Assembly (NCBI GenBank): GCA_934654775.1 | Contig: CAKUGR010000010.1 | Coordinates: forward strand, 41,186 to 105,185 | Source of the DNA: an uncultured Collinsella sp. | Lineage (GTDB): Bacteria > Actinomycetota > Coriobacteriia > Coriobacteriales > Coriobacteriaceae | Direction of reading: 5' to 3' | DNA: 64,000 bases | Shown here: positions 42,293 to 64,000 of the stretch, piece after piece | Layout: each line of letters starts with the position of its first letter | Numbering within the stretch: position 1 is the first letter of the stretch | Made by a program: the position numbers and the translations under genes | Notes under the pieces: generated by a model | What the model saw: the letters and a program-made list of their open reading frames with translations, nothing else | Database searches by the model: none | What the model was told of the DNA's origin: nothing

Positions 42293-45099
<2,807 letters not shown>

Positions 45100-45228
45100 G
45101 TGGTTTTCCTTTTTGGCCATCGCCCACGCCATGCAGCCTCGGGCGAGTTAAACACAGATAAATGTACTTTAGCCAAACAGGACGCGGCCTATACGGTCGA
45201 GCTCGACCGCCACGTAATAACTACGACC

Positions 45229-45326
45229 AACCTGCCACAATGGGACAGGTTAATTTTGGCAGGTCTATCTGGGCAAACGCCGCCTCTCTGCCATGTGGTG
45301 CCATGGGGACAGGTTAGTTTGCACTA
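45229..45326. repeat. GGGACAGGTT hairpin repeats, two degraded copies
   Basis: ACCTGCCACAA ... TTTTGGCAGGT (45230-45264) encloses TGGGACAGGTTAA; a second partial copy (TGGGGACAGGTTAGTTTGCAC) lies at 45303-45323. They sit between secA and rpmE. Confidence 0.7.
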
Positions 45327-45330
45327 ATTT

Positions 45331-45372
45331 AAAAAGAAAAAGGGCCGCGCATCCAAATGGATGCACGGCCCT
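45331..45372 (-). terminator. strong intrinsic terminator of rpmE
   Basis: AGGGCCGCGCATCCA (45341-45355) pairs with TGGATGCACGGCCCT (45358-45372), one mismatch, with TTTTTCTTTTT following on the minus strand. Confidence 0.95.
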
Positions 45373-45408
45373 CATGCCATGAATGCGAGTGATTCCGCGG
45401 CGAGCTAT

Positions 45409-45834
45409 TTACTCAGCAGCCTCGGTGGTCTCGGCCTCGGCAGCGGCCTCCTCGACGGGAGCCTCTGCGGGGGCCTCGGCGGCCTGCTTGGCAGCCTCCT
45501 CGGCAAACTTAGCAGCACGCTTAGCCTTCTCGGCAGCCTTAGCCTCAGCGGCGGCCTTGCGAGCGGCCTCGGCCTCAGCAGCCTTGGCGGCCTTGGCAGC
45601 CTTGGCCTCCTCGGCCTTCTTGAGCTGGGCGGCAGCGGCGCCACCGAACTTGTCGGCGAAGCGCTGGACGCGTCCACCGGTGTCGACGAACTTCTGCTGG
45701 CCGGTGTAGAACGGGTGGCACTCGTTGCAAAGCTCGACCTTCATCTCGGACACGGTAGCGTGCGTCTTGAAGGTGTTGCCGCAAGAGCACGTCACCGTGC
45801 ACTCGACATACTGGGGATGGATACCCTGCTTCAT
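45409..45834 (-). CDS. rpmE: ribosomal protein L31 with a 76-residue Ala/Lys/Glu tail
   Basis: Residues 1-65 are a normal zinc-type L31: Cys 16, 18, 36 and 39 in [20 protein letters not shown] and [10 protein letters not shown]. Residues 66-141 are an Ala, Lys and Glu helix ([20 protein letters not shown] type) ending in an acidic AETTEAAE tail. L31 is normally about 65-80 residues. The tail has no stop or frame change at the junction and is followed by a good terminator, so it is part of the protein. The start follows AAGGAGTCC. Confidence 0.95.
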
Positions 45835-46020
45835 GGTAGGACTCCTTATTAGTCAGGCGCTGGTTACCGATCAGCGCATAAGGCGTCTTGGTTTCCGACC
45901 AAGACAACAAACTCGGCTATGGTACCACGGCGCCGCGCGTCCCACAAAAGGTTCACGGTCTTTTCGGAACGACACGAGCTGGACCTTAAATATCAACTTC
46001 ATCCGAACACTCCCCCACAT

Positions 46021-47829
46021 TCATCTCTCGTATGTATCGAGGTATTCCTGCTTGAGCGTCTGCGAGGACGACTTGATCTTTTCCACGAGCGTGCCGGCCT
46101 CGATGAAGTAGAACGAGTTGGTGAGGTCTGCCAGGTCGTCGAGCAGATGGCTTGAAATGAGCACGCTTCGTCCCCGCGCCACCTCGCTGCGCATCGCGTC
46201 GCAGGAGGTTTTCCGCTTTCCCGGATCGAGGCCGTTCAGCGGTTCATCGAGGATGAGGTACGGGCAATCGGTCGCTATCGCCATGGCAAGCTTTACCTGC
46301 TGCTTCATTCCTGTCGAGAGTTTACGGGTCGGCTTGTCGAGATATGGGGAGATTCCGAGGGAGTCGCAGAGCGAGTCGATGTCGGCGGCCGATTTCCACG
46401 CCTCCCTAACGAAAGCAAGGTGCTCGATGGCCGATAGCGTGGGGTAGAGATCCGCGCTGCCCGAAGAGCTCAGGTAGACGAGTTCTGCAAATTCGGCTGA
46501 TTGACGTTGGCAGATTCCGTCTGCCGTCAGGCTTCCCGAGCGGATGCGGGTGGGAAATTGGCCCGACAGCGCTTCAAGAAGGGTGGTTTTCCCCGAGCCG
46601 TTGGGAGCAACGAGGCCCGCCGCCGTTCCCGGGCTCAGGAAAAGCGACCCGATTGAAAGTATCGTCGTGCTTCCGTATCCCACGCTCACGTCCAGGAGCT
46701 CAAGCCCATGGTGCTTTTTAGCGGGTCCAGCCTGTTTGGGCGAACGCGTCACAACGGCGCCGACCGCGAAAAGGACCGCGACGTATACCAGGGCCACGGC
46801 AAGCATCGATGCGCCGCCCGAACCGGAGCCAATGAATTCTGTCGGGAAGCATCCTACGTAACCCGTTGCCTCGATAGGCGAGAACACGGCCAGCGGCAGG
46901 AGCCCGAGCACGGCATTATGCCCTAGTGCCGAATCGGACAATAACGGGAATGCCGGGGCCGCGACAAGCAACGCGGAGGCAAGGGGGCCCGCGAAGACGC
47001 GCCTCGTTGCGGTCGATAGGACGACGGAACAAACGGATATCAAGGTTCCGCCCGCAAGAAGCGCGAGAAGCAGGGCTGTGAAGACGTTTCCCGCAGTCGT
47101 GGTGGTAAGCGCGCCGTCATGGAAGAAGACGATCGGGTACCCAATTTGCCCGAAGCCGTTTAGGGCCAAGGCGTAAATGCCCCCGGGTGCAAGGCCGGCG
47201 AGGAGCATCGCGGTCCCCGCGACGATTATCGAAAACACGATCTGGATAAGGCGCCGGAATTTGGGCGCGGGCGCCTTTGCCGCCAGGGTACCGGGCCTTG
47301 TGGCGCCGAGCAGGAGTATCGACGAGAGAAGGAAGGGGATGAAGGGAAGGAAAGACGGCGCCGCGGCAATGGCGTAAGGCAGGAAGGAAAGGAATGGCAG
47401 GTCGTTTGCGGAGGCCGGGATATCCGTGATGCCGGAGCTGCTCAGGGCACGGCAATACGCGAGGTCTGCGTCATTGGTCTCTCGGTCTCCCACGATGGAC
47501 CCGGATTGGAAGCCCTCGTCCATGAGCGCGTAGTAGCTCTCGGCAGAATCGAGAAAGGCGGCGTCGGTTTGAGCGGCGAGGGCGGCGTTCGCGTATCTTG
47601 CAAGCTCAGCGTCATCTTGCTGCTCTGGCGATAGGTCTGTGCCGCTGGCCTGGGGCGCGCGCGTATTGAATGCGTCGACAAAGCCCTGCATGCCCTGCTT
47701 CATAAAGAAGGGCCCGTAGATGGGTGAATTGAACGCAATGGGGACGAAAAAGGCTGCAGCGAGAACGAGCGTACAAATCCATACGGCCCTGTCTCTTAGG
47801 ATTAGTTTGAGAAGAAGTCGACAGTACAT
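46021..47829 (-). CDS. single-chain ABC transporter: permease fused to ATPase
   Basis: 602 residues. The first 360 hold an ABC-2-like permease with one N-terminal helix, an external loop of about 110 residues and six to seven further helices. The last 230 are an ATPase: Walker A APNGSGKTTLL, signature RKLSTGMKQQVKLAMA, Walker B YLILDEPLNGLDPGK and the switch histidine in LISSHLLDD. Most ABC-2 exporters of this kind have separate genes, so this is an unusual permease-then-ATPase fusion. AAC-rich, lower-bias codons suggest transfer. It lies alone at the edge of the accessory region. Confidence 0.9.
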   Translation of the reverse strand: MYCRLLLKLILRDRAVWICTLVLAAAFFVPIAFNSPIYGPFFMKQGMQGFVDAFNTRAPQASGTDLSPEQQDDAELARYANAALAAQTDAAFLDSAESYYALMDEGFQSGSIVGDRETNDADLAYCRALSSSGITDIPASANDLPFLSFLPYAIAAAPSFLPFIPFLLSSILLLGATRPGTLAAKAPAPKFRRLIQIVFSIIVAGTAMLLAGLAPGGIYALALNGFGQIGYPIVFFHDGALTTTTAGNVFTALLLALLAGGTLISVCSVVLSTATRRVFAGPLASALLVAAPAFPLLSDSALGHNAVLGLLPLAVFSPIEATGYVGCFPTEFIGSGSGGASMLAVALVYVAVLFAVGAVVTRSPKQAGPAKKHHGLELLDVSVGYGSTTILSIGSLFLSPGTAAGLVAPNGSGKTTLLEALSGQFPTRIRSGSLTADGICQRQSAEFAELVYLSSSGSADLYPTLSAIEHLAFVREAWKSAADIDSLCDSLGISPYLDKPTRKLSTGMKQQVKLAMAIATDCPYLILDEPLNGLDPGKRKTSCDAMRSEVARGRSVLISSHLLDDLADLTNSFYFIEAGTLVEKIKSSSQTLKQEYLDTYER

Positions 47830-49599: not shown

Positions 49600-50253
49600 A
49601 TGGCACGAAATGAATTCGTAAAGGCTCGCGTTTCTCCTGAAGAGAAAGAGATCTATCAACAACTTTGCGAACAAGCTGGTTGTACGGAAGCTGAGTTGAT
49701 TCGATCCGTACTGATTCATCGGGAAATCTCACTTGATGATCTCGATGACGAAATGCAAGTTCTTGATCGGAAGAAAAAGGCCCTCCATAAGCAACAGGAG
49801 GATTACAGGAGAGCACGGGCATCGCGTAAAACCGATGAACGTGGCGAGCCGATTTCTGAAAAAAGGAGTATTCCGTTCCAAGTAATGCTCACTGCTCCAG
49901 AAAAAAAGGCAATTGAGCAGCGTGCAGCGGCGCTCGGCATTTCTGTAAGCGAACTGGTTCGCCGCAGCGCAATTTACGGAAAGATCGAATCATTCAATTT
50001 CAATATCGCTGAAGTGGAGAAGCTTCATCACGAGTTATTGAAGGAAGGAACGAACCTCAATCAGTTGATGTATTTTGTGAATGCTCAGGGCCTTCCCGCG
50101 TACAACGAGAAAGCTGTTTTCCGAACACTTGAAAAGGTTTATCAAAATGCTCGAAAGGTCGACCGGTTTATCGAGGAACTTGAAAAGCGTTATCACGTTG
50201 ACTATGTTCCTCACGACTATCTGGCAGATGAACCTGACAACAGAAATCTTTAA
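49600..50253 (+). CDS. mobC: MobC-like relaxosome protein with two ribbon-helix-helix segments
   Basis: About 217 residues from ATG 49600 (MARNEFVKARVSPEEKE), just after a CCGGAGGCCACTCCGGAG palindrome. Two RHH-like segments are in tandem: residues 3-35 (EFVKARVSPEEKEIYQQLCE) and about 85-120 (IPFQVMLTAPEKKAIEQRAA with LGISVSELVRRSAIYG). The C-terminus has the MobC signature GTNLNQLMYFVNAQGLP. MobC proteins bind oriT and help the relaxase open the DNA. Here no relaxase gene follows, so this is probably a remnant or an element mobilised in trans. Confidence 0.82.
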   Translation: MARNEFVKARVSPEEKEIYQQLCEQAGCTEAELIRSVLIHREISLDDLDDEMQVLDRKKKALHKQQEDYRRARASRKTDERGEPISEKRSIPFQVMLTAPEKKAIEQRAAALGISVSELVRRSAIYGKIESFNFNIAEVEKLHHELLKEGTNLNQLMYFVNAQGLPAYNEKAVFRTLEKVYQNARKVDRFIEELEKRYHVDYVPHDYLADEPDNRNL

Positions 50254-50553
50254 CTCGGACCTATACTTCGCGAATGATGCGCACAGCGCCATTGCAAGAC
50301 CGATCGCAAGGCCAACGGCCGCTATCTTTGCATAGCTCCTGCCCGCGCGTCCCAGTTTTCGGCCTAAAACGGGATGCATTTTCCGAACCGGCGCTCAAAA
50401 GGAAACCGTATCCCGCTTTGGGGCGGGGGCTGCGGAAAATTGGCCCGTGATCTGGTTCGGATTGGAGTATGCGTTAACCGTTGATGTTGGCCGGTGTGGG
50501 CATGGAGATAGATGAGTGGATCGAGCGATATAATGGCATGCTATGGAGGCCAT
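50254..50553. other. element-chromosome junction with a repeat and a possible gene relic
   Basis: On the minus strand from 50379 to about 50254 the frame reads GRAGRSYAKIAAVGLAIGLA, a plausible membrane helix with chromosomal codon use, then runs into the mobC end, as if a gene had been cut. At 50344-50424 lies a copy of the GTCCC/CGGAAA repeat family seen at 25111 (AACGGGATGCATTTTCCG). A weak promoter for the LuxR-type gene is expected here. Confidence 0.45.
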
Positions 50554-52695
50554 ATGCTCTTTTCCCGCCGTTCTGCCACATCTGCCTGCGCCATTGTGCT
50601 TATCGTAATGGCGGTTACCCCTTATCACCGGTTTTCATCTTCAATCGGCTTGGCATCAGGTGCAATGACCTGGCTCGTTATCCTTGGCGCATGCCTCGCA
50701 GCGTTTGGTCACGGTGTTGCGCTCCGCAAGGGGAGAGAAATAAGACGGCCGGGTCGCCTTGGCGTCTTCGGTGTTTTCCTTGCTGCTATTGCGGTGGTTC
50801 CCGAATGGGTCGACTTGGCCTTCTATGCTCGCGGAGATTCTATTCCAATCGCGTTTGCACCAATCTGGTTGTTGCATGGTGTTTCGTGTGCCTTGTGCTT
50901 CACTGGGTCGTTGCTCCTCTCATATGTAATTTGGGATACGGCGGGCTCTCCTTTGATACGGGGGGCGGCGCGGGACGGCGAAAGGGGGACCCGCCGATCG
51001 CAGAGCGCGCTTTTTGCAGAAACAATAGTTGTCCTGTCTTGCCTGCTGTTTTGCTGTCGAGTTTCATGGAGAGTCGTTCCCGAGCCATGGGGGATGCCCT
51101 CTGTAACGGCCGCATCAATTGGCATCGTGCTTTTAATTCCTCTGGTCTATCTCGTATTGGCTGCGGTCACGCTGCTTTGCTGTCCCCGCGCCTTTGGTCG
51201 GGGGCAGGGCAACGTGTTTGCCCGTTCTGTGCTCGTAGCAGTTCCCATTGGCCTTGTTCCGGCTGTCGAGGTGGCATATTTTGCAAGCGGTGCCACGGTC
51301 ATTGCATCACTGTCGATGGGGTCCGCTATTGCTGTTGCCGCCTTCGTATACACATTGCTAAGGGAGAAACGGGACAACAATTCGGATACCCCTCGCACGT
51401 CCGACCCATTCGATGCGGGGGTGTTTTCCCCTGCCCTGTCGCCTCGAGAAGAGCAGTTTGTTCGACTGCTGCTCAAAGGGAAAACGCCGGCGGAAATTGC
51501 CAGGGAGACGGGTACGAAGCCATCGACGGTGCGAACAACGCTTCACCGAGCATACGGGAAGGCGTCGGTTGCGGGCTCGCGTGAGCTGGTGGCGCTGTTT
51601 GCGGGTGGGGGCGAAGCTGTAGAGTCTGAGCTGTCGCAGCGGCATGCCGGCGATATGTTGGCATTAGCTCGGACGCACCGGCTGCTTCGATATCTGCCCA
51701 CATCTTTTTTTATTTTCCTTGCGGCAGGTCCCTTGGTAATGGCGAATAGTGATTGGGAATCCAGCGTTACGCGGGCAGTCGCCTTTTCTCTTGCAAGCTA
51801 TACATTGGGCCTCGGACTGTTTCTTTCGCCGTATTGCGCGGTTGTAAAGACAAATCATGACGCTGATCTGGATAGGGCAGGCGAAGCGATTGGGCTCGGA
51901 AGCCCGTGCGTGTGGGCGATACTGTCTGCCGTGGAATGGGCTTTTGTTTATATCGCGGCATGGAGGTGCATACGCGATCCGTTGATGGCTGCACCGGTCC
52001 TGTTTTGCGGCATAGCGTCTATGGCTTCGCTCGCTGTTAAGCTGCGCCCGTTTAAGGTTCATGCCCATACTCGGGCTATCGTGCCGTTGGCGTTAATAGG
52101 TGTATCCGCTTTAATCTATGCAGCAACTAGGGGGCGAATTCATGAACTTGCGGTACTGACGGGGATGCTGCTCACGTATATAGTGCTGCGAAGCTGTCCG
52201 CAGCGCAAAATGCTTGGGGTATGGATGCTCTGCTTTGGGGCGATGGCTCCTGTTTGGGTTGTCTTGCTCAACATGGTGCAGGATCTGACGGTTTTCAAGC
52301 CGTTGTTCCTCGCGTCGTTGTTGGGGCATAGTTCGGCTGTCAATGTCGTCGTGGCAACGGTGGTCGTCTGCTGGTCTGCGCCCATGTTCGTCACGCACAT
52401 CGCGCTCGCCCGCTCGGTTGAGGACGAGAAAGCCGTCTTGGAGTACCGCGCGAACGGGTCCACCGAAACAGCCCGCGTGCGCCAGCTGGCCCTGCTTATG
52501 TCTCGCTCCCTTTCTGATGTTCAGTCGCAAATCTTGCTGATGACGGCAGAGGGCGCAACGACAAAGGCTATTGCGGAGGATGTCGGTTACGCTGCATCTA
52601 CGGTGCAAGCGTTGCGATCCGCATCTTATCGCCAGTTGAAGATCAAGAACAAAGCGGAGCTTATTTCATTGTTATCGCAGGTGGATAACGTGTAA
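50554..52695 (+). CDS. membrane regulator with two LuxR-type HTH domains
   Basis: 713 residues built as TM block, HTH, TM block, HTH. The first block has seven or so helices, then a LuxR-type HTH (LSPREEQFVRLLLKGKTPAE, with STVRTTLHRAYGK) near 51436-51600. A second block of seven to eight helices follows, then a second HTH (LSDVQSQILLMTAEGATTKA, with STVQALRSASYRQL) near 52507-52678. Coriobacteriia have many one-block membrane LuxR regulators; a tandem fusion is unusual. The start is 50554 (GGAGGCCAT before it) or 50512. It likely controls the transporter cluster downstream. Confidence 0.85.
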   Translation: MLFSRRSATSACAIVLIVMAVTPYHRFSSSIGLASGAMTWLVILGACLAAFGHGVALRKGREIRRPGRLGVFGVFLAAIAVVPEWVDLAFYARGDSIPIAFAPIWLLHGVSCALCFTGSLLLSYVIWDTAGSPLIRGAARDGERGTRRSQSALFAETIVVLSCLLFCCRVSWRVVPEPWGMPSVTAASIGIVLLIPLVYLVLAAVTLLCCPRAFGRGQGNVFARSVLVAVPIGLVPAVEVAYFASGATVIASLSMGSAIAVAAFVYTLLREKRDNNSDTPRTSDPFDAGVFSPALSPREEQFVRLLLKGKTPAEIARETGTKPSTVRTTLHRAYGKASVAGSRELVALFAGGGEAVESELSQRHAGDMLALARTHRLLRYLPTSFFIFLAAGPLVMANSDWESSVTRAVAFSLASYTLGLGLFLSPYCAVVKTNHDADLDRAGEAIGLGSPCVWAILSAVEWAFVYIAAWRCIRDPLMAAPVLFCGIASMASLAVKLRPFKVHAHTRAIVPLALIGVSALIYAATRGRIHELAVLTGMLLTYIVLRSCPQRKMLGVWMLCFGAMAPVWVVLLNMVQDLTVFKPLFLASLLGHSSAVNVVVATVVVCWSAPMFVTHIALARSVEDEKAVLEYRANGSTETARVRQLALLMSRSLSDVQSQILLMTAEGATTKAIAEDVGYAASTVQALRSASYRQLKIKNKAELISLLSQVDNV

Positions 52696-52804
52696 ACGCC
52701 TGGATTATCAACTCAATAGCGAGTGTTTACAGACATCTTTCTCCATTCATGCAAAGGTTGCCGTGCGTCGACGCATTGTTAACCGCTTTTGATTGGAGAA
52801 GGCC

Positions 52805-53317
52805 ATGATTAAGCCAAGGAGCGCTATTGCTCGAATCGGAGTCGGCTTGGCGATTGTTGCGGGCTTGTCGATGGGTGCACCTGCCGCATCATTTGCTCAA
52901 GAGGAGTTTGACACTTCCCAGGTTTCTAGCATTTCGCAGAGCGCGGATGCCGGAATTGCCACATGCAAGAACAACGAAGATAGAGATTTCGCTTTTCAGT
53001 GTTCTGGCACGAGCGCAACTGGCTATCGCCGGAAAGAAGATTCATCCTCAGTCTACATTTGGATTCAAGGCTATTCGGGAAAGCCATTGCGCCTGTACGT
53101 GGACGGTGCCTATGACACTAAAGGAACGGGCAACATGAATTGCACGCAAGGCGTGTATCGCTCCAACCATGCGGATAAATGGGAGATATACAACCTCGTC
53201 CGTGAGAATGGGCGCAGTCATGCTCGTCTGACTGCATGGGCCGAGTCCGGATACGGCACGGTCTATGGAAAGTGGAGCCCCGATTGCTTCGGCCATTTTA
53301 ACAAACTTCCCTCCTAG
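52805..53317 (+). CDS. secreted protein with paired cysteines, beside ABC transporter
   Basis: 170 residues: a signal peptide (RSAIARIGVGLAIVAGLSMG, cut near ASFA-QEE), then a mature part of about 135 residues with four cysteines (ATCKNNED, FQCSGTS, NMNCTQG, SPDCFGH), which could form two disulfides. The segment GVYRSNHADKWEIYN followed by LTAWAESGYGTVYG recalls DUF2712-type and lactococcin-972-like secreted proteins found next to ABC transporters, but I cannot assign a family. GGAGAAGG precedes the start. A stem-loop follows the stop. Confidence 0.75.
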   Translation: MIKPRSAIARIGVGLAIVAGLSMGAPAASFAQEEFDTSQVSSISQSADAGIATCKNNEDRDFAFQCSGTSATGYRRKEDSSSVYIWIQGYSGKPLRLYVDGAYDTKGTGNMNCTQGVYRSNHADKWEIYNLVRENGRSHARLTAWAESGYGTVYGKWSPDCFGHFNKLPS

Positions 53318-53345
53318 CCAATCCGCAGCTTCTTGTTGTGATTAG

Positions 53346-53377
53346 GGCCGGGCCGAGCGTTGCTGCTCGGCCCGGCC
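53346..53377. terminator. 13-bp GC hairpin without T-run (partial terminator or RNA stabiliser)
   Basis: GGCCGGGCCGAGC (53346-53358) and GCTCGGCCCGGCC (53365-53377) are a perfect 13-bp stem with a 6-nt loop, between the secreted-protein gene and the transporter genes. Without a T-run it may protect the upstream message and lower downstream expression. Confidence 0.7.
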
Positions 53378-53396
53378 AATGGGAGGATGATGACAT

Positions 53397-54278
53397 TTGA
53401 ATAGAAATCTAATACGGCACGAGCTGTCCAAGATATTTGGCAATCCTATATTTGCGTTGGCTCTTATTTTGGCGACTGCCATTTCGATGGCAGCTGCCAT
53501 CGAGGCGTGGTGGACACTCGAGGCCGAGCGCAAGCAGCTGTTATCTTTTGGCTACGGCATTGGTCTGCAGTCTCAGACATACCTCGGCCAAACGCGTGAA
53601 AGTAGCTTTGGCAACTGGATCGTTGTGAGCGCGAACGCGCCGTTGCTAGCGTCGGTGTTTTTCTATGCGCTGCCGTTGCTTGCCATGTTGGCCGGGTCGT
53701 GGTCATGCCTGTCCGAGCGTTTGAGCGGTTACGAGGCACAGATCTGCACGCGTGTTTCTAGAAATGCATATGTGAACGTGAAGATGCTGTCTGCTTTCCT
53801 CTCTGCGTTTGCGGTCACGGCTATTCCGCTACTCGTGAACTTTCTGATTGTCTCCATGCTGTTTCCCGCGTATCTCCCCCGAGTCGACGAATCGACTTAC
53901 GTCGGACTCTATCTGCATAGCTATTTTTCTGGCCTGTTTTATTCCCGGCCTCTGTTATACGTGCTGGTTTATACGCTGTTCGATGCGGTGGCGCTGGGGG
54001 TTCTATCCATGGCCGTGACCGGTCTGTCGGTTGTGTTCCGCAGCAGAATCAAGGCGATGGTCGTTCCATATCTGATTATGGTTGCATGGCATTTTGTTAA
54101 CGACTGGATTTTTAGCGTCCTTTCATGCGTCGGCTTTAACTGCAACATTCTTAACAGCATCAGGTCGGAATCACTAAATAACTGGCCCGACATCCGAGCG
54201 GGGGTTGCGGAAATCATCTTGCTGTTCGTCTTTTCTTTGGTTTCCGCGAGATTCTTAAAAAGGCGCGAGGTGGTCTGA
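53397..54278 (+). CDS. ABC-2-type permease, first subunit
   Basis: 293 residues, about six helices: one N-terminal helix (FALALILATAISMAAAIEAW), an external loop, and five helices with the charged IC region SERLSGYEAQICTRVSR. The pattern fits the small permeases of bacitracin- or lantibiotic-type exporters. The start is TTG at 53397 after GGGAGGATG, as no ATG is near. Its stop overlaps the next start (TGATG). Confidence 0.82.
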   Translation: MNRNLIRHELSKIFGNPIFALALILATAISMAAAIEAWWTLEAERKQLLSFGYGIGLQSQTYLGQTRESSFGNWIVVSANAPLLASVFFYALPLLAMLAGSWSCLSERLSGYEAQICTRVSRNAYVNVKMLSAFLSAFAVTAIPLLVNFLIVSMLFPAYLPRVDESTYVGLYLHSYFSGLFYSRPLLYVLVYTLFDAVALGVLSMAVTGLSVVFRSRIKAMVVPYLIMVAWHFVNDWIFSVLSCVGFNCNILNSIRSESLNNWPDIRAGVAEIILLFVFSLVSARFLKRREVV

Positions 54279-55114
54279 TGCTGTTTAGGCTGGTCGCCGC
54301 GGACCTGAGGACCGTTTTGAAGAAGAACATCGTTACTTTTATTGCGGTTGCGGCAGTGACCGTTGCGAACTTGGTGTACGCCTACGGATTGTCTTCTGTG
54401 TATGGGGTCAGGACGGATACCTTGGGGTTTGCGGATAATCTTGCGCTCGTGTTTGCCGGATCTGCTCCGTTTGAGCCTAGGCCCGGGGTCATGTTTGTGC
54501 CTCCGCTAGGGTGGCTATTCCTCATTCTGCTTATTCTCTATACAACACTCGATTATCCGACCGAATCGTTGCACGGGCTTGGTTTACAAGCACTTGTTCG
54601 ATGCCGGGCAAGAACCCTTTGGTGGGCCTCGCGTTTTATCTCAGTGGCGGCGGTAACGGCATTTTCACTGCTCGTGGTGGTTTGCTCTGTTGTGATTTGG
54701 AGCTTGGTGGTGAGCTCCTCGTTCAGCGCGGTCATTCATGGCGAGTCGCTTCAGCTGGCTAATTTGGCGCCGTGGTTTCTCAAAGCTGCCGAGGCGGATG
54801 CGCTGCCGTTTTTCATAGGTCTCTTATTTGCTTTCGAGGCGCTTGCGTTTGCGCAGGCAGCGGTTGGGTTTGTGCTTGGGCCGTCAGTCTCGTTTGTGGT
54901 TTTAATGAGCTACCTGATCTGCTCGGCATATGCACGACATTGGGCGCTATTGGGTAACGCCTTGATGCTGTTGCGCTGGGGCGGAATTGTCAAAGAGGGA
55001 ATCGCGGCGGGCTCGAGCGTCTTGTCATCAATTGGGCTTATGTCGTTATGCCTATCGTTGGGTGGACTGTGGTTTCGAAGGGCCGACCTTATAGAAAAGG
55101 GGGACAAGATATGA
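54278..55114 (+). CDS. ABC-2-type permease, second subunit
   Basis: 278 residues, six predicted helices, with the coupling region LHGLGLQALVRCRARTLWWA. Similar size and layout to the first permease but with little sequence identity. The ATG overlaps the previous stop, and its own stop overlaps the ATPase start (ATGA), so the three subunits are made in equal amounts. Confidence 0.82.
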   Translation: MLFRLVAADLRTVLKKNIVTFIAVAAVTVANLVYAYGLSSVYGVRTDTLGFADNLALVFAGSAPFEPRPGVMFVPPLGWLFLILLILYTTLDYPTESLHGLGLQALVRCRARTLWWASRFISVAAVTAFSLLVVVCSVVIWSLVVSSSFSAVIHGESLQLANLAPWFLKAAEADALPFFIGLLFAFEALAFAQAAVGFVLGPSVSFVVLMSYLICSAYARHWALLGNALMLLRWGGIVKEGIAAGSSVLSSIGLMSLCLSLGGLWFRRADLIEKGDKI

Positions 55115-55755
55115 GCGTGATCGTTAGGGACGTATCGAAGCGCATGGGCAAAAACGATGTCCTGCGCAACGTGTCCATCGAGGTTGACCCTGGGACCGTG
55201 GTCGGACTTCAGGGGATAAACGGTTCGGGTAAGACCATGCTTATGCGAGCGGTCTGCGGATTGATCAAGCCTACCGAAGGCGAAATCTCTATCGATGGCC
55301 AAAGGCTTGGGGCGGACATCTCGTTCCCGCCGAGTCTGGGGATGTTAATCGAGGCGCCTTCCTTTTTGGGATATCTGTCTGGCTACGACAATCTGGAGCT
55401 CATCGCTCAGATCAAGGGCGTTGCCACCCCCGAGGACATTCGCTCTGCCCTGCGGCTCGTGGGGCTCGATGCAGACGAAAAAAAGAAGTTCCGAGCATAC
55501 TCGCTTGGGATGAAGCAACGTCTGGGGATAGCTGCGGCAATTATGGAAAAGCCGAAGCTACTTGTTCTCGATGAGCCAACAAATGCCCTCGACGAAGCGG
55601 GCGTGGAAATACTCAAGCGCGTTGTGGCGATGGCGGCATCAACGGGTCGCGAGGTTATTCTGTCCAGCCATGACGGAGAGGTGCTCGAGGAGCTGGCCGA
55701 TCGGGTTTACTGCATGCGCGACGGTGCCGTTGTGAAAGTTCGGGAAAGGTCGTGA
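55111..55755 (+). CDS. ABC transporter ATPase
   Basis: 214 residues: Walker A GINGSGKTMLM, Q loop region IEAPSFLGYLSGYDNLELIA, signature YSLGMKQRLGIAAAIM, Walker B LLVLDEPTNALDEAG and the switch histidine in ILSSHDGEVL. The LGMKQRLG form is typical of the bacteriocin and bacitracin ABC branch. The start at 55111 overlaps the permease stop. Confidence 0.93.
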   Translation: MSVIVRDVSKRMGKNDVLRNVSIEVDPGTVVGLQGINGSGKTMLMRAVCGLIKPTEGEISIDGQRLGADISFPPSLGMLIEAPSFLGYLSGYDNLELIAQIKGVATPEDIRSALRLVGLDADEKKKFRAYSLGMKQRLGIAAAIMEKPKLLVLDEPTNALDEAGVEILKRVVAMAASTGREVILSSHDGEVLEELADRVYCMRDGAVVKVRERS

Positions 55756-55760
55756 GCGCG

Positions 55761-56420
55761 ATGAAGAAGACCCTGTGGACAAGAAGGGCGGTGCTCGCTC
55801 TTTTCGGCTGTGCTGCCACCGGCCTTGCGGGCATGGGGGTGAGCGTCGTTAACGGGAACCGGACGGTCATTCCTGAGAAATATTATGCGGAGGGCGAATG
55901 GCTCTCGATGGATGGGGCGTTTCTGGGGTCGAAGGATGTGGCGACTGACGGGTATTCGTTTTGCATAGACGGGGCGGAGCTGCTCACGCCGCGCGAGTAT
56001 CTCAAGCGTGCGCATGATGATTATTCAAAATATGGCGTCGTGGATACGAAAACGAAATTGAAGGACGCCGACATCACGTGTGTTATCGCCGTAAAGATGC
56101 GTGTCAGGAATAAGGACAATGTCGAAGGCGGAATCAAGACGTATGTTTGGCATTTGGTGCCGGAGTCTGCGCCAAACTATGACTTTATGGTCAATACCGA
56201 TCTGATGGCGCAGGCAATGCCGGCTCTAAGCGGTTCTGCTGCGTTTGCCGTGCAGGTTGGGGCGGAGAACGAGTTGCTCGTCCCATTCATGATGCAAAAC
56301 ACCAACGACTATTTCGAAGGTTACGAGACCGTCCGTTTTGAGAAGGCTTTTCCTGGGACTTATACGATGAAGATGACCGATCTGCCGGAGAGAAGGCTCT
56401 TAAGGTTTGAAGTGAAGTAA
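55761..56420 (+). CDS. membrane-anchored protein at the end of the transporter operon (DUF5028-like)
   Basis: 219 residues from ATG 55761 (or GTG 55752, overlapping the ATPase stop). One N-terminal helix (RRAVLALFGCAATGLAGMGV) anchors an outer beta-rich domain: EGEWLSMDGAFLGSK, FCIDGAELLTPREYL, then IAVKMRVRNKDNVEGGI. This resembles DUF5028-type proteins that accompany such exporters in Gram-positive gut bacteria; an accessory or immunity role is an inference. The frame stays open for 69 more codons after the stop. Confidence 0.75.
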   Translation: MKKTLWTRRAVLALFGCAATGLAGMGVSVVNGNRTVIPEKYYAEGEWLSMDGAFLGSKDVATDGYSFCIDGAELLTPREYLKRAHDDYSKYGVVDTKTKLKDADITCVIAVKMRVRNKDNVEGGIKTYVWHLVPESAPNYDFMVNTDLMAQAMPALSGSAAFAVQVGAENELLVPFMMQNTNDYFEGYETVRFEKAFPGTYTMKMTDLPERRLLRFEVK

Positions 56421-56630
56421 CTCGAAGGTCCCGCGGTTCGCGACGAGCTCCTTGCGCGCCGCGGCTACGCAAGGGAGATTCGCAACCGCTATGCCGGCTC
56501 CGTTCCCGATGCCGGTGACGACCGCGTCCGCGCCACCGGCCAGGCGCACGGCGGTAGCGCCGTGTCGCGACAGATGGACGATCGCGTCGTCGATCGCGGT
56601 GACTACTCGCGCGGCGACACGCCCCGCTAG
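56421..56630 (+). pseudogene. 3' relic of an unidentified gene
   Basis: Directly after the TAA of the previous gene, 69 in-frame codons read VRDELLARRGYAREIRNRYA and continue to a TAG at 56628, with a basic, hydrophilic composition unlike the preceding protein. There is no start or ribosome site. It looks like the C-terminal end of another protein into which the transporter cluster was inserted. Reading through the TAA is less likely. Confidence 0.45.
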
Positions 56631-56787
56631 TTTTGAACTGTCCTGCCCTAGCGCGTTGCAATTCAATCAGCTGTTACAGAATCCTGGAAGAAAGGGCCAA
56701 ACCGAAGTGTCTGGCCGGACGCCAATTGTCCGGGAACTGCTTCGGATTCGACCCTCTTCTACTTTACCTCCATGGCCATGCGGAAGG

Positions 56788-57010
56788 CTAGTACTCCTTA
56801 ACCGGATGCTTCTTACCGAAACCACCGTCGATGCCGAAACGGCAGAGCCTGTCGATGGCGCGAAGGTGCTCATCAATGGCGTTGGCGATCTGAGTGTCAA
56901 CGATGCTGTCATAGTCGTTAAGGCTGCGGACCGCCTCGTCGGCGGCCATGAAGGCCTTGATGGCTTGATTGAACTGAGCCTTAAAGATGTCGAGCGTGTG
57001 ACCGGGGTTG
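56788..57010 (-). pseudogene. 3' relic of a minus-strand gene
   Basis: The minus strand from about 57010 to a TAG at 56788 reads HTLDIFKAQFNQAIKAFMAA followed by ANAIDEHLRAIDRLCRFGID and a KKHPVKEY end. Amphipathic helices and chromosomal-type codons (GAC, ATC, GCC, CGC) suggest real coding; the plus strand of the same segment gives a less natural protein. No start; the 5' part is replaced by the DUF559-like relic. Family not recognised. Confidence 0.4.
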
Positions 57011-57516
57011 TCGCGTCGCCGTTTGAGGCTCAGCTGTCCTTGTTGCTTGCGACGCCGCGCGTCGCCGGTAGCGAGGGTCTCAGATCCTTTAGCAACAATG
57101 CTCGCATTGTCCTTTCGGGCAAGGCAGCGCGTTTGGCCGGGCGCTACAACTGCTATGCAGACTTCCTATTTGAGGAGACGGGTGACAAGAAGCCGCTTGT
57201 CGTCGAGTGCCAAGGCAGGCTTGTGCACAGTGGGGCCGATGCCGCAATGTCGGATTCCGATCGCGCCACCGCATTGCAGCAAATGGGTTTCAACGTCATG
57301 TTGCTGACGTATCAGCAAATCGCCGATGAGAAGAACTTCGAGATAGTGAAGCGCATGTTGTTTGAGGAGATCGGCTTGGAGTATCGCGAGAAGACGGACG
57401 CCAGCTTGATGCGCAGCGCAGTCTTCGTCGCGAGCTCTTTATCGATTGGAACACGCTGGGGCGCTAAAGTTTCCGAGCCTTGCCCTTACCTCTGCTCTTG
57501 CAAAACCTTGCAATGA
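57001..57516 (+). pseudogene. C-terminal part of an AbiEi/DUF559-like protein
   Basis: About 170 codons from VTGVVASPFEAQLSLLLATP to a TGA at 57514. The centre, YADFLFEE with KPLVVECQGRLVHSG and DRATALQQMGFNVMLLTYQQ, is the nuclease-fold end of the same broad family as the protein at 9107. The N-terminal half is missing and no start is credible, so it is a 5'-truncated gene. Its 3' end overlaps the end of the convergent DUF1648-like gene by about 50 bp. Confidence 0.6.
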
Positions 57517-61368: not shown

Positions 61369-61407
61369 TCTAGAAACCCTCTAGAGCATTTCTAGAGGGT
61401 TTCTAGA
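61369..61407. terminator. perfect 17-bp hairpin shared by two convergent genes
   Basis: TCTAGAAACCCTCTAGA (61369-61385) and TCTAGAGGGTTTCTAGA (61391-61407) with loop GCATT. The stop of the minus-strand phosphoesterase gene (61381-61383) lies inside the left arm. It probably ends or protects both messages. Confidence 0.7.
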
Positions 61408-62118
61408 GTCGGGCGCAGCATTTTCGATCGGCACGATGTCTCGGTAGATAAGGCGGTGCCTGTCGTCGCGCCATTCGTCGCCGTGGTAGTGACCGAAGAA
61501 CCAGGCTCGGTAGCCGAGCCGGCCGTCGAGCTCGCCAAGGAATCGCTGAAGCCGGTCGCCCCGATACTCGCGTCCGCGCTCGCGACACAGCCCCTCAGCA
61601 AGGGCGGCAGGAGCCTCGTGAGTCACAACGTAGTCAACCTTCCAGCCCACGCGATTGAGCGAGGAACGGCAGTGTTCCGTCTCTTTCTCGCTCGGCATCT
61701 CCTTAGGCCACCAGCTCCTCCCCTCCCTGCGATACTGCCTGTCGTTGCTCGCGGCGCCGCCCATGGCAAGGACCGTGAGCCCGTCGATGTCGAACACCTC
61801 TCCGCGCATCAGGTGCAGCACGTGCGGTCGCGCCTCATGGACGAGCCCGCCGTTCCACTCCCGCACCGGCAGCCCAGCCAGGGCGTGGTGATTCTCATGG
61901 TTGCCGTCCACGAAGCATGTGGTCCAGGGCTTCGACTCGAACCAGTCGAGCCAGTATTTCTCGGCGTTGGATCCATCCCAGACAAAGCCGAAGTCGCCGG
62001 CCACGATCACTGCGTCATCGCGCGTCAGGGTCCGGCCCAGCGGCCAAGACCTGAAGGCGAACCTGCTGGCCCCGTACTCGGCCCTGCCGTGCACGTCTCC
62101 CGTCACATAGACAGCCAT
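61381..62118 (-). CDS. metallophosphoesterase A
   Basis: 245 residues with the complete calcineurin-like metal site: YVTGDVHGR, VAGDFGFVWD, VDGNHENHHAL, THEAPAAL and GHYHGDEW. It should hydrolyse phosphomonoesters or diesters with two metal ions; the substrate is unknown. Its start overlaps the previous gene's stop (TGATG). It is a close relative of metallophosphoesterase B next to it. Confidence 0.93.
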   Translation of the reverse strand: MAVYVTGDVHGRAEYGASRFAFRSWPLGRTLTRDDAVIVAGDFGFVWDGSNAEKYWLDWFESKPWTTCFVDGNHENHHALAGLPVREWNGGLVHEARPHVLHLMRGEVFDIDGLTVLAMGGAASNDRQYRREGRSWWPKEMPSEKETEHCRSSLNRVGWKVDYVVTHEAPAALAEGLCRERGREYRGDRLQRFLGELDGRLGYRAWFFGHYHGDEWRDDRHRLIYRDIVPIENAAPDSRNPLEML

Positions 62119-62843
62119 CAGTACGCACCCCACGGCAGGAGTTTGTCCCCGAGTCTCACGATCCGGTCATACAGTACCGTGTGCCGTTCGTCCGGATTGC
62201 CGTCTCGGTGAAAATGTCCGTAATACCAGCGCTTGTAGTCCAGGCGATCCTCGAGCTCGTCGAGAAATCCGGTCAGCCGGTCCACATTGGGGCGTTCCCA
62301 GCCTGGGTCCGGGTAGAGCGTCGGCGAGAGCATGCGCGTCGAGCAGGTATGGGTGATGACGCAGTCGACCTTCCAGCCGACCTCGTCGAGCCTCGCCCGC
62401 GCGGTATCGAAATCGCGCTCGTCCGGGAGCTCCTGAGGCCACCAGCTGGAATACGGCACGCGGTATTCCCTGTCCACGCTCGTGGCGCCGCCCATGGTAA
62501 AGATCGTCGAGCCGTCGAGCTCAAAAACCTCGCCGCGCGTCAGGCGCCGTATGGGGGAGGTGTCCGACAGGCGCTGCGTCAGCCCACCGTGCCACGGCTC
62601 CATGGGGCGCTCCTCCCAGTGATCGAAGCGCTCGTGGTTGCCGTCGACGAACAGTACCGTGTAGGGGCGCGACTCCAGCCAGGCGATGTCGGCGCATTCC
62701 TCGGCAGAAAAGTCCCACGGAAAGCCAAAGTCGCCGGCAACGATGAGATAGTCGTCGCTGGTAAGACTGTCGCCAAGCTCCCAGTCGCGGAGCTTTTGCA
62801 TGTCGAGCCCACTGTGGATGTCGCCCGTCACATAGACCGTCAT
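62118..62843 (-). CDS. metallophosphoesterase B
   Basis: 241 residues: YVTGDIHSGLD, VAGDFGFPWD, VDGNHERFDHW, THTCSTRML and GHFHRDGNP, all five metal-site motifs. It shares with A the layout and phrases such as FVDGNHE, RGEVFDIDG/RGEVFELDG and VGWKVD, so they arose by duplication. The start at 62843 overlaps the stop of the third gene (ATGA); a longer frame into that gene is not used. Confidence 0.93.
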   Translation of the reverse strand: MTVYVTGDIHSGLDMQKLRDWELGDSLTSDDYLIVAGDFGFPWDFSAEECADIAWLESRPYTVLFVDGNHERFDHWEERPMEPWHGGLTQRLSDTSPIRRLTRGEVFELDGSTIFTMGGATSVDREYRVPYSSWWPQELPDERDFDTARARLDEVGWKVDCVITHTCSTRMLSPTLYPDPGWERPNVDRLTGFLDELEDRLDYKRWYYGHFHRDGNPDERHTVLYDRIVRLGDKLLPWGAY

Positions 62844-63478
62844 CGAATCACCTCTTCCCTCTTGTACGCCGCCAGCTCGCGCTCGACCTGCCTGTCGCCG
62901 GTCTCGTTGACCCACCAGGGCCATTTCACCCGGCCGCACGGCTCGCCGACTCCGGCGAACCATTCCCTCAGCTCGTCGAGGCTCACCGGGGAGTGCCCGT
63001 TGGCATCGCAACCGACGTCGTAGCGCAGAAGGCCCTGCTTGCGGTTGAACTCGTTGTACGCGCCGCCGCTGCTGTGGATGTGCCCGTGGAGGTGCCACGA
63101 TCCATGGCTCATGCCCTGCCAGTCGGCCATGGGGTAATGGCTCAGGACGATCTTCTGCCCGTCGATCTTGAGCACGCAGATCGGCGGCTCCACGGTGAAG
63201 GCGCCCGCGACCGCCGGCTGGGTCCAGTCCTTGTCGTGGTTTCCCGGGACGAGGTGGATGCGCCTGCAGGCGATCCGCTTGCGCAGCCCGCAGGCGTCCT
63301 GGGCGGTCATCTTGAATGAGAAATCCCCCAGGATGTAGAGCTCGTCGTCCACGGCAACCCTGCCGTTGATGTTGTCGACGATGGCGCCGTTCATCTGCCA
63401 AATTGTCTCCCACGGGCGGTCGGTGAACTTCAGCACGTTCTCGTGCCCGAAGTGGGTGTCGCTGGTGAACCAGATCAT
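62840..63478 (-). CDS. metallophosphoesterase C
   Basis: 212 residues of a different, phage-like branch: FTSDTHFGHENVLKF, ILGDFSFK, VPGNHDKDW, VLSHYPMADW and HLHGHIHSSGG. The metal ligands are complete. First gene of the three; the start follows AAGGAGACAATGG. Similar enzymes occur in phages and mobile elements, where their role is open. Confidence 0.93.
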   Translation of the reverse strand: MIWFTSDTHFGHENVLKFTDRPWETIWQMNGAIVDNINGRVAVDDELYILGDFSFKMTAQDACGLRKRIACRRIHLVPGNHDKDWTQPAVAGAFTVEPPICVLKIDGQKIVLSHYPMADWQGMSHGSWHLHGHIHSSGGAYNEFNRKQGLLRYDVGCDANGHSPVSLDELREWFAGVGEPCGRVKWPWWVNETGDRQVERELAAYKREEVIR

Positions 63479-63992: not shown

Positions 63993-64000
63993 GTTTCCCG

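Follow-up and report, generated by a model that had tools for sequence, protein, structure and literature searches.

What could a membrane regulator, a secreted protein, a set of ABC transporter genes and a membrane-anchored protein do together, when all of them are read in one direction in a gut bacterium? The question is raised by a stretch of 64,000 nucleotides from an uncultured Collinsella sp., hereafter the window, for which an original prediction had proposed a system without published description; among its simplest models was an unmodified antimicrobial accompanied by an immunity pump. In the analysis reported here this model stays the best reading: judged from sequence, the locus would encode a putative Sec-exported antibacterial protein together with an immunity pump resembling LanFEG, the lantibiotic immunity transporter type, and we put the probability of this at about 0.6.

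The cassette and where it recurs

ORF calls on the window give six reading frames at 50554-56420, all on the plus strand (Table 1), which confirms the six same-strand genes of the prediction. The overlaps claimed for the last four genes are found between TM1 and TM2 (1 nt, TGATG) and between TM2 and the ATPase gene (4 nt, ATGA), whereas the ATPase gene and acc overlap, by 4 nt, only if acc begins at GTG; with the ATG start, which is used in an annotated plasmid ortholog of acc, they are separated by 5 nt.

Table 1. Features of the locus, in positions of the window
Feature	Position	Strand	Basis or remark
reg, membrane LuxR-type regulator, 713 aa	50554..52695	+	two fused membrane-HTH units; GerE/HTH matches, hydropathy
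Leader inverted repeat	52739..52800	+	11-nt arms; 3' arm over the sec ribosome-binding site
sec, 170-aa secreted protein distantly related to DUF2712	52805..53317	+	C-terminal GxWSPD motif
Hairpin 3' of sec	53346..53377	+	13-bp stem, 6-nt loop, without T tract
TM1, permease 1 of 293 aa with about 6 hydrophobic segments	53397..54278	+	TTG start; hydropathy
TM2, DUF2705-like permease 2 of 278 aa with about 6 hydrophobic segments	54278..55114	+	profile match, hydropathy
ABC, ATPase, 214 aa	55111..55755	+	ABC_tran 1e-28; TIGR03740 best NCBIfam model
acc, membrane-anchored DUF5028-like protein	55761 (ATG) or 55752 (GTG)..56420	+	profile match, predicted structure
Exchange block: mature sec, hairpin, TM1	52850..54275		left edge approximate; dS and identity profile

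Neighbourhoods were annotated with profiles built from the window genes and their relatives. With the window protein as sole query, 11 of 43 genomes of the genus proved to hold a sec relative; for the family the figure is 15 of 65 genomes, and for the class 33 of 396 in the sample, spread over 18 of 153 genera. The genes of sec, TM1, TM2, the ATPase and acc stand together in 38 of the 42 Coriobacteriia loci that have sec or a sec remnant, a set which includes the window but neither L018-L020, named copies of L077, L078 and L044, nor the false positive L076. The neighbourhood survey thus found genes that travel together, and not the scattering that had been named as an argument against the prediction. 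Four loci depart from the five-gene content: the last gene of L050 has no match, L071 lies at a contig end, L075 holds a sec remnant, and L056 has sec, acc and TM1 with no detected TM2 or ATPase gene, so that sec occurs there without a full pump. Gene orders differ in L053-L057, which were found with the DUF2712 model. A plasmid of Vescimonas fastidiosa (Clostridia) carries the five genes in the order of the window, and on a Carnobacterium plasmid, whose record shows sec at four places, sec is joined by the permeases, the ATPase and an anchored protein that matches weakly. Beyond Coriobacteriia, 396 sampled genomes of the phylum yielded a single weak match (E 2.7e-4). In the protein collection, eight clusters of 170-aa sec proteins (P0001-P0005, P0007, P0009, P0010) comprise 2452 members, ten TM1 clusters (P0066-P0069, P0073, P0074, P0076-P0079; full length, at least 73% identity) 7175, and seven anchored-protein clusters (P0051, P0052, P0054-P0058) 4944, these being raw counts whose comparison may be affected by length and sampling. 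Among the papers searched, none names DUF2712 or DUF5028, and none of those listed describes such a system in its title or abstract opening; within that scope the expectation of a conserved system without published description is upheld.

The left part of the window is chromosomal, as 45000-46000, beside secA and rpmE, is matched over part or full length in all 43 genus genomes, and from about 46 kb on the window resembles plasmids of C. aerofaciens. The cassette is carried by the 30-kb circular plasmid NZ_CP084005.1, and of two related plasmids NZ_CP048434.1 covers only 11% and NZ_OY725718.1 only 8% of window 50000-57500, which makes the cassette a variable load of this plasmid family. Here a plasmid-type cassette apparently sits inside the chromosome; an assembly join of chromosomal and plasmid-like parts is a possible explanation too.

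The secreted protein, its pump and its control

A hydrophobic leader stands at the N-terminus of all 30 aligned sec members (hydropathy and inspection by eye); judged by eye, the mature protein of the window would begin at about residue 32. Invariant residues in this alignment are only K77, W157, S158 and D160, and GxWSPD is a near-invariant C-terminal motif. The sec protein had been described as having four cysteines, a signal peptide and its own stem-loop; the leader and the hairpin are borne out, while the cysteines vary among the aligned members and are no family feature, and a functional scaffold of four cysteines was dropped. The window protein itself has no match in Pfam (PF10916.13 included) at E up to 1. 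A homolog 98% identical to it bears a precomputed PF10916.15 (DUF2712) label and DUF2712 (PF10916) is matched by 11 of the 30 aligned relatives (E up to 0.01, best 4.5e-6), so the suspected DUF2712 link holds through relatives and not by the window protein. In Pfam and NCBIfam no enzyme family is matched above cut-off by the window protein and its relatives; such a match had been set beforehand as grounds for giving up the prediction.

The AlphaFold2 model of sec is a beta-sandwich with pLDDT about 90 from residue 61 onward. Among structural neighbours (Foldseek, VIA) nothing rose above noise and no PDB sequence matched, so that no resemblance to known toxins was found by these searches; likenesses to carbohydrate-binding modules, Eph ligand-binding domains and PirA lay within the noise range and were discarded. 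A phage origin was likewise dropped, since phage records gave no match in tblastn to the window sec or to one from Carnobacterium, and two scans of viral contigs confirmed no relative.

For the pump, the ATPase contains the motif LGMKQRLG, which had been taken as a signature of bacitracin/lantibiotic type; its best NCBIfam model is TIGR03740 of the lantibiotic-protection subfamily, at 178.9 bits and below the cut-off of 309.75. Pfam and NCBIfam searches of the cassette genes found no lantibiotic peptide and no modification enzyme. One of 29 TM1 relatives has a weak ABC2_membrane_2 match, four of 28 TM2 relatives match DUF2705, and NCBIfam models at E up to 0.01 are matched by none of the 29 TM1 and none of the 28 TM2 members. 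The anchored protein of the window reaches DUF5028 (PF16431) at E 5.6e-4 and 20.6 bits, below the cut-off of 29.9; matches in 16 of 29 relatives (best 8.1e-12) and a plasmid ortholog annotated as DUF5028 support the link to this family expected at the outset. Its model has an N-terminal helix and a beta-sandwich (pLDDT 89). Outside the C. aerofaciens group, 24 of 34 loci have one more gene of the anchored type (about 240 aa) between sec and TM1; this second gene is missing from the window, L012-L017 and L021. Anti-phage defence was rejected: with PADLOC, the ABC protein drew generic ATPase matches, the regulator was matched in its HTH regions, and the other four cassette proteins drew no match.

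The regulator has LuxR-type HTHs at residues 294-334 and 652-706 (GerE/HTH matches) and 8 + 6 hydrophobic segments in a simple hydropathy scan, in support of the membrane LuxR-type fusion proposed before. In the sec leader region, the arms of the inverted repeat (52739-52749 and 52790-52800) are 91% complementary, and the pairing recurs in folds of L012, L013 and L015. The 83-nt segment with the hairpin folds at -41.4 kcal/mol (z -4.9), and 0 of 200 shuffles were as good. Within 60 nt 3' of sec, a strong fold (z below -2) is present in 18 of 31 representative loci and missing in 13, compared with 1/31 for TM1, 3/30 for TM2, 2/30 for the ATPase gene, 1/30 for acc and 2/16 for the regulator gene. 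Comparison of inspected loci shows the hairpin to vary in sequence from group to group, so what is kept is its position and not its sequence.

Loss of sec and its joint exchange with a permease

The TM1 profile has matches in 20 of the 65 family genomes and gives 23 clusters at E 1e-50 or better, with six weaker matches (E 1e-11 to 1e-16) left out of this count. Of these pump clusters, 15 have an intact sec and two a damaged one (broken into two frames in L052, a 52-residue remnant in L049), while in six (L082-L087) none was found; all 17 sec matches in the same genomes adjoin a pump cluster. Loss of sec is one-way: the pump often remains where sec is gone. Four of the six clusters (L082, L083, L085, L086) keep the regulator and the second anchored gene, and L084 and L087 differ from the usual layout; since sec evolves fast, some of the six, above all these last two, may possess a sec that was missed. 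The alignment of L082 with L044 reaches 92% and 94% on the two sides of a stretch of about 600 nt with sec, and the stretch is missing in L082. A shortened form is seen in six clusters of 110-aa proteins (P0022, P0023, P0025, P0027, P0030, P0034; 333 members), which keep the first half of sec and end in a tail resembling what the window's hairpin region between sec and TM1 would encode if translated in frame as far as the TM1 start; they look like sec alleles minus the second half, recurrent in metagenomes. As a separate observation, L058 is a second cluster without detected sec.

When the window is compared with the sister Collinsella type (L013, L015 and L016), dS is 1.52-1.61 for sec and 1.55-1.56 for TM1, against 0.17-0.25 for the regulator, 0.08-0.19 for TM2, 0.11-0.20 for the ATPase and 0.18-0.34 for acc. 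Identity to L013/L015 is 0.94-0.98 in the 109 nt upstream of sec, drops to 0.84-0.85 through the leader part, lies at 0.52-0.86 in 90-nt windows up to the end of TM1 and returns to 0.97 from 54275 onward, with the edges of the block at the sec leader and the TM1/TM2 junction. Within types, identity is 0.984 for mature sec and 0.965 for TM1 between L013 and L015, and 0.910 and 0.993 between the window and L012. There are two types, and those of sec and TM1 are matched in all eight loci. As the two genes form one divergent block between conserved flanks, they have moved together, perhaps in a single event. Over 26 loci the co-divergence is mainly general co-inheritance (r 0.63-0.84): the sec-TM1 partial correlation, the largest of sec, is 0.23, TM1-TM2 is the strongest pair (0.53), and the sec-TM1 excess is small.

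A putative antibacterial protein among its alternatives

Among described systems, the cassette comes closest to the lactococcin 972 group, of which mediterrocin of Mediterraneibacter gnavus is a member and whose clusters often have a seven-TM DUF1430 immunity protein (PMC12345188). They share with the cassette a Sec-type leader, the lack of a modification enzyme, a predicted beta-sandwich, a linked ABC ATPase, mobile elements and a life in gut bacteria; the cassette differs in its pair of permeases, its anchored proteins of DUF5028 type and its secreted protein of DUF2712 type. The lactococcin 972 comparison suggested for sec failed: the models are not among the families listed for the 30 members in Pfam and NCBIfam at E up to 0.01, and membership was dropped. 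The lactococcin 972 fold (2LGN) is not among the structure matches listed, an absence that excludes nothing, and TM1, TM2 and their relatives match only ABC2_membrane and DUF2705 models, with no DUF1430 seven-TM immunity protein. With LanFEG the cassette has in common one ATPase nearest TIGR03740 and two permeases of about six hydrophobic segments each; unlike LanFEG, its ATPase falls below the TIGR03740 cut-off, its permeases match no model and it has no lantibiotic peptide or modification enzyme. DUF2712, DUF2705 and DUF5028, matched by relatives of sec, TM2 and acc respectively, have no role assigned in the libraries used, and their joint system with its pattern of loss and exchange is described here. 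The regulator resembles the 10-12-TM LuxR regulators of Coriobacteriia, those characterised of which control metabolic enzymes, in having a membrane domain followed by a LuxR-type HTH in the same bacterial class, and differs from them in joining two membrane-HTH units in one protein (PMC9734109). The same source reports tools for genetic work in Coriobacteriia. Since the lactococcin 972 sequence tests failed and the layout is LanFEG-like with unrecognised members, the cassette is best taken as a putative antibacterial protein that is secreted and paired with a matched pump, both made of families to which no function is assigned.

On this account sec, a DUF2712-type protein with a predicted beta-sandwich fold, would leave the cell by the Sec route, as its leader suggests, and would act from outside on related neighbours. 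Protection of the producer would fall to an ABC-2-like pump, formed by both permeases with the lantibiotic-protection-like ATPase and helped by one or two DUF5028-type anchored proteins that may catch sec outside the membrane. TM1 would set the specificity for the cognate sec, as suggested by the exchange block; the hairpin may keep sec transcripts in excess of those for the pump, with the operon probably under control of the membrane LuxR-type protein. Several points weigh against this account: the searches made showed no likeness of sec to known toxins, the exchange block is seen in two allele types and eight loci, the sec-TM1 excess in co-divergence is small, sec may have been missed in some clusters that seem to lack it, L056 has sec with no full pump, and 13 of 31 loci have no strong hairpin.

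A joint move of sec and TM1 fits a toxin with its immunity determinant and also a signal with its receptor, and BceAB-type transporters do sense peptides. Sec might then serve as a signal that diffuses and is perceived by way of the permease complex or the membrane LuxR protein, with the sec-less clusters as listeners; retention of the regulator in four of those six clusters and its dN/dS of 0.34-0.42, the highest of the gene set, agree with this. The regulator, however, lies outside the exchange block, which counts against it as the receptor, the ATPase is of a protection type, and repeated loss of sec with the pump retained is more natural for a costly toxin, so that we consider signalling, though the main rival, unlikely. 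The frequent survival of the pump after the loss of sec gives it the look of self-protection against an antibacterial protein. The same pump-only clusters, together with the Sec-type leader, bear on the original view of the ABC genes as an exporter, which the operon linkage of sec with the pump genes would favour: a protein with its own signal-like leader needs no dedicated exporter, a Pfam search found no peptidase domain in the ATPase, and 6 of 23 pump clusters have no detectable sec. That role is not upheld, and we rate it the least probable of the readings considered. Hardly better placed is a host- or surface-directed sec, for instance one binding glycans, with a transporter that helps it to fold, to be retained or to be taken up.

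Under the antibacterial reading, a wider proposal may be advanced, which we hold as a tentative one with chances slightly below even: that these WSPD/DUF2712 proteins form a new class of Sec-secreted antibacterial proteins, scattered in Coriobacteriia and present in Bacillota, whose immunity pump has its specificity set by TM1, in which sec and permease are swapped as matched allelic cassettes, and in which pump-only strains are immune non-producers. If the reading is true, a role open to test could be given to the DUF2712-type family and two partner families without assigned function, and a common gut genus would be credited with an interference system which, going by the 2452 sec members, is well represented in metagenomes.

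Plasmid-like sequence and its edge in the window

The right part of the window, from about 45978 to its end at 64000, resembles C. aerofaciens plasmids of 23-30 kb, and chromosomal secA/rpmE sequence lies immediately to its left. The boundary falls between 45978 and 46018; either a plasmid has integrated here or the assembly has joined two separate sequences. Next to it lies a fused permease-ATPase, whose residues 122-602 share 95% identity with a gene of NZ_CP084005.1, a 30-kb circular C. aerofaciens plasmid carrying the cassette; its closest models are RbbA and the lantibiotic-protection ATPase, and it is possibly a second protection pump. Right of the cassette, two of three overlapping genes are metallophosphoesterases by the annotation of related plasmids. 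A short element left of the boundary is considered a dispersed repeat, since numerous copies (84-92%) occur across the Collinsella genomes searched; its DNA fold showed nothing unusual.

Features discussed in this part (window coordinates unless a locus is named)
Feature	Position	Strand	Remark
Dispersed repeat	45229-45282		~50 bp
Fused permease-ATPase	46021-47829	-	602 aa
Inverted repeat upstream of sec	52739-52800		3' arm over sec ribosome-binding site
Three overlapping genes	61381-63478	-	
Large protein	L056 9940-12291		related to those of L079
Large proteins	L079 5744-7927, 13225-15405		related to that of L056
Secreted-looking protein	L080 1528-1860	-	110 aa; Lactiplantibacillus plasmid

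The secreted protein gene and its surroundings

Genes for related large proteins (E 8.6e-73) adjoin the secreted protein gene, sec, in a Coriobacteriia genome (L056) and on a Carnobacterium plasmid (L079), where both carry the annotation "glycoside hydrolase domain protein". In L080, the gene of the secreted-looking protein adjoins genes for an ATPase and a protein like permease 1 (TM1); by eye, this protein has a motif resembling R-x-K-x-x-x-S-x-Y of the sec family, and it gave no match with the sec profile.

Predicted folds of three C. aerofaciens-group loci with the cassette (L012, L013 and L015) retain the pairing of the inverted repeat before sec; this repeat might control the translation of the gene.
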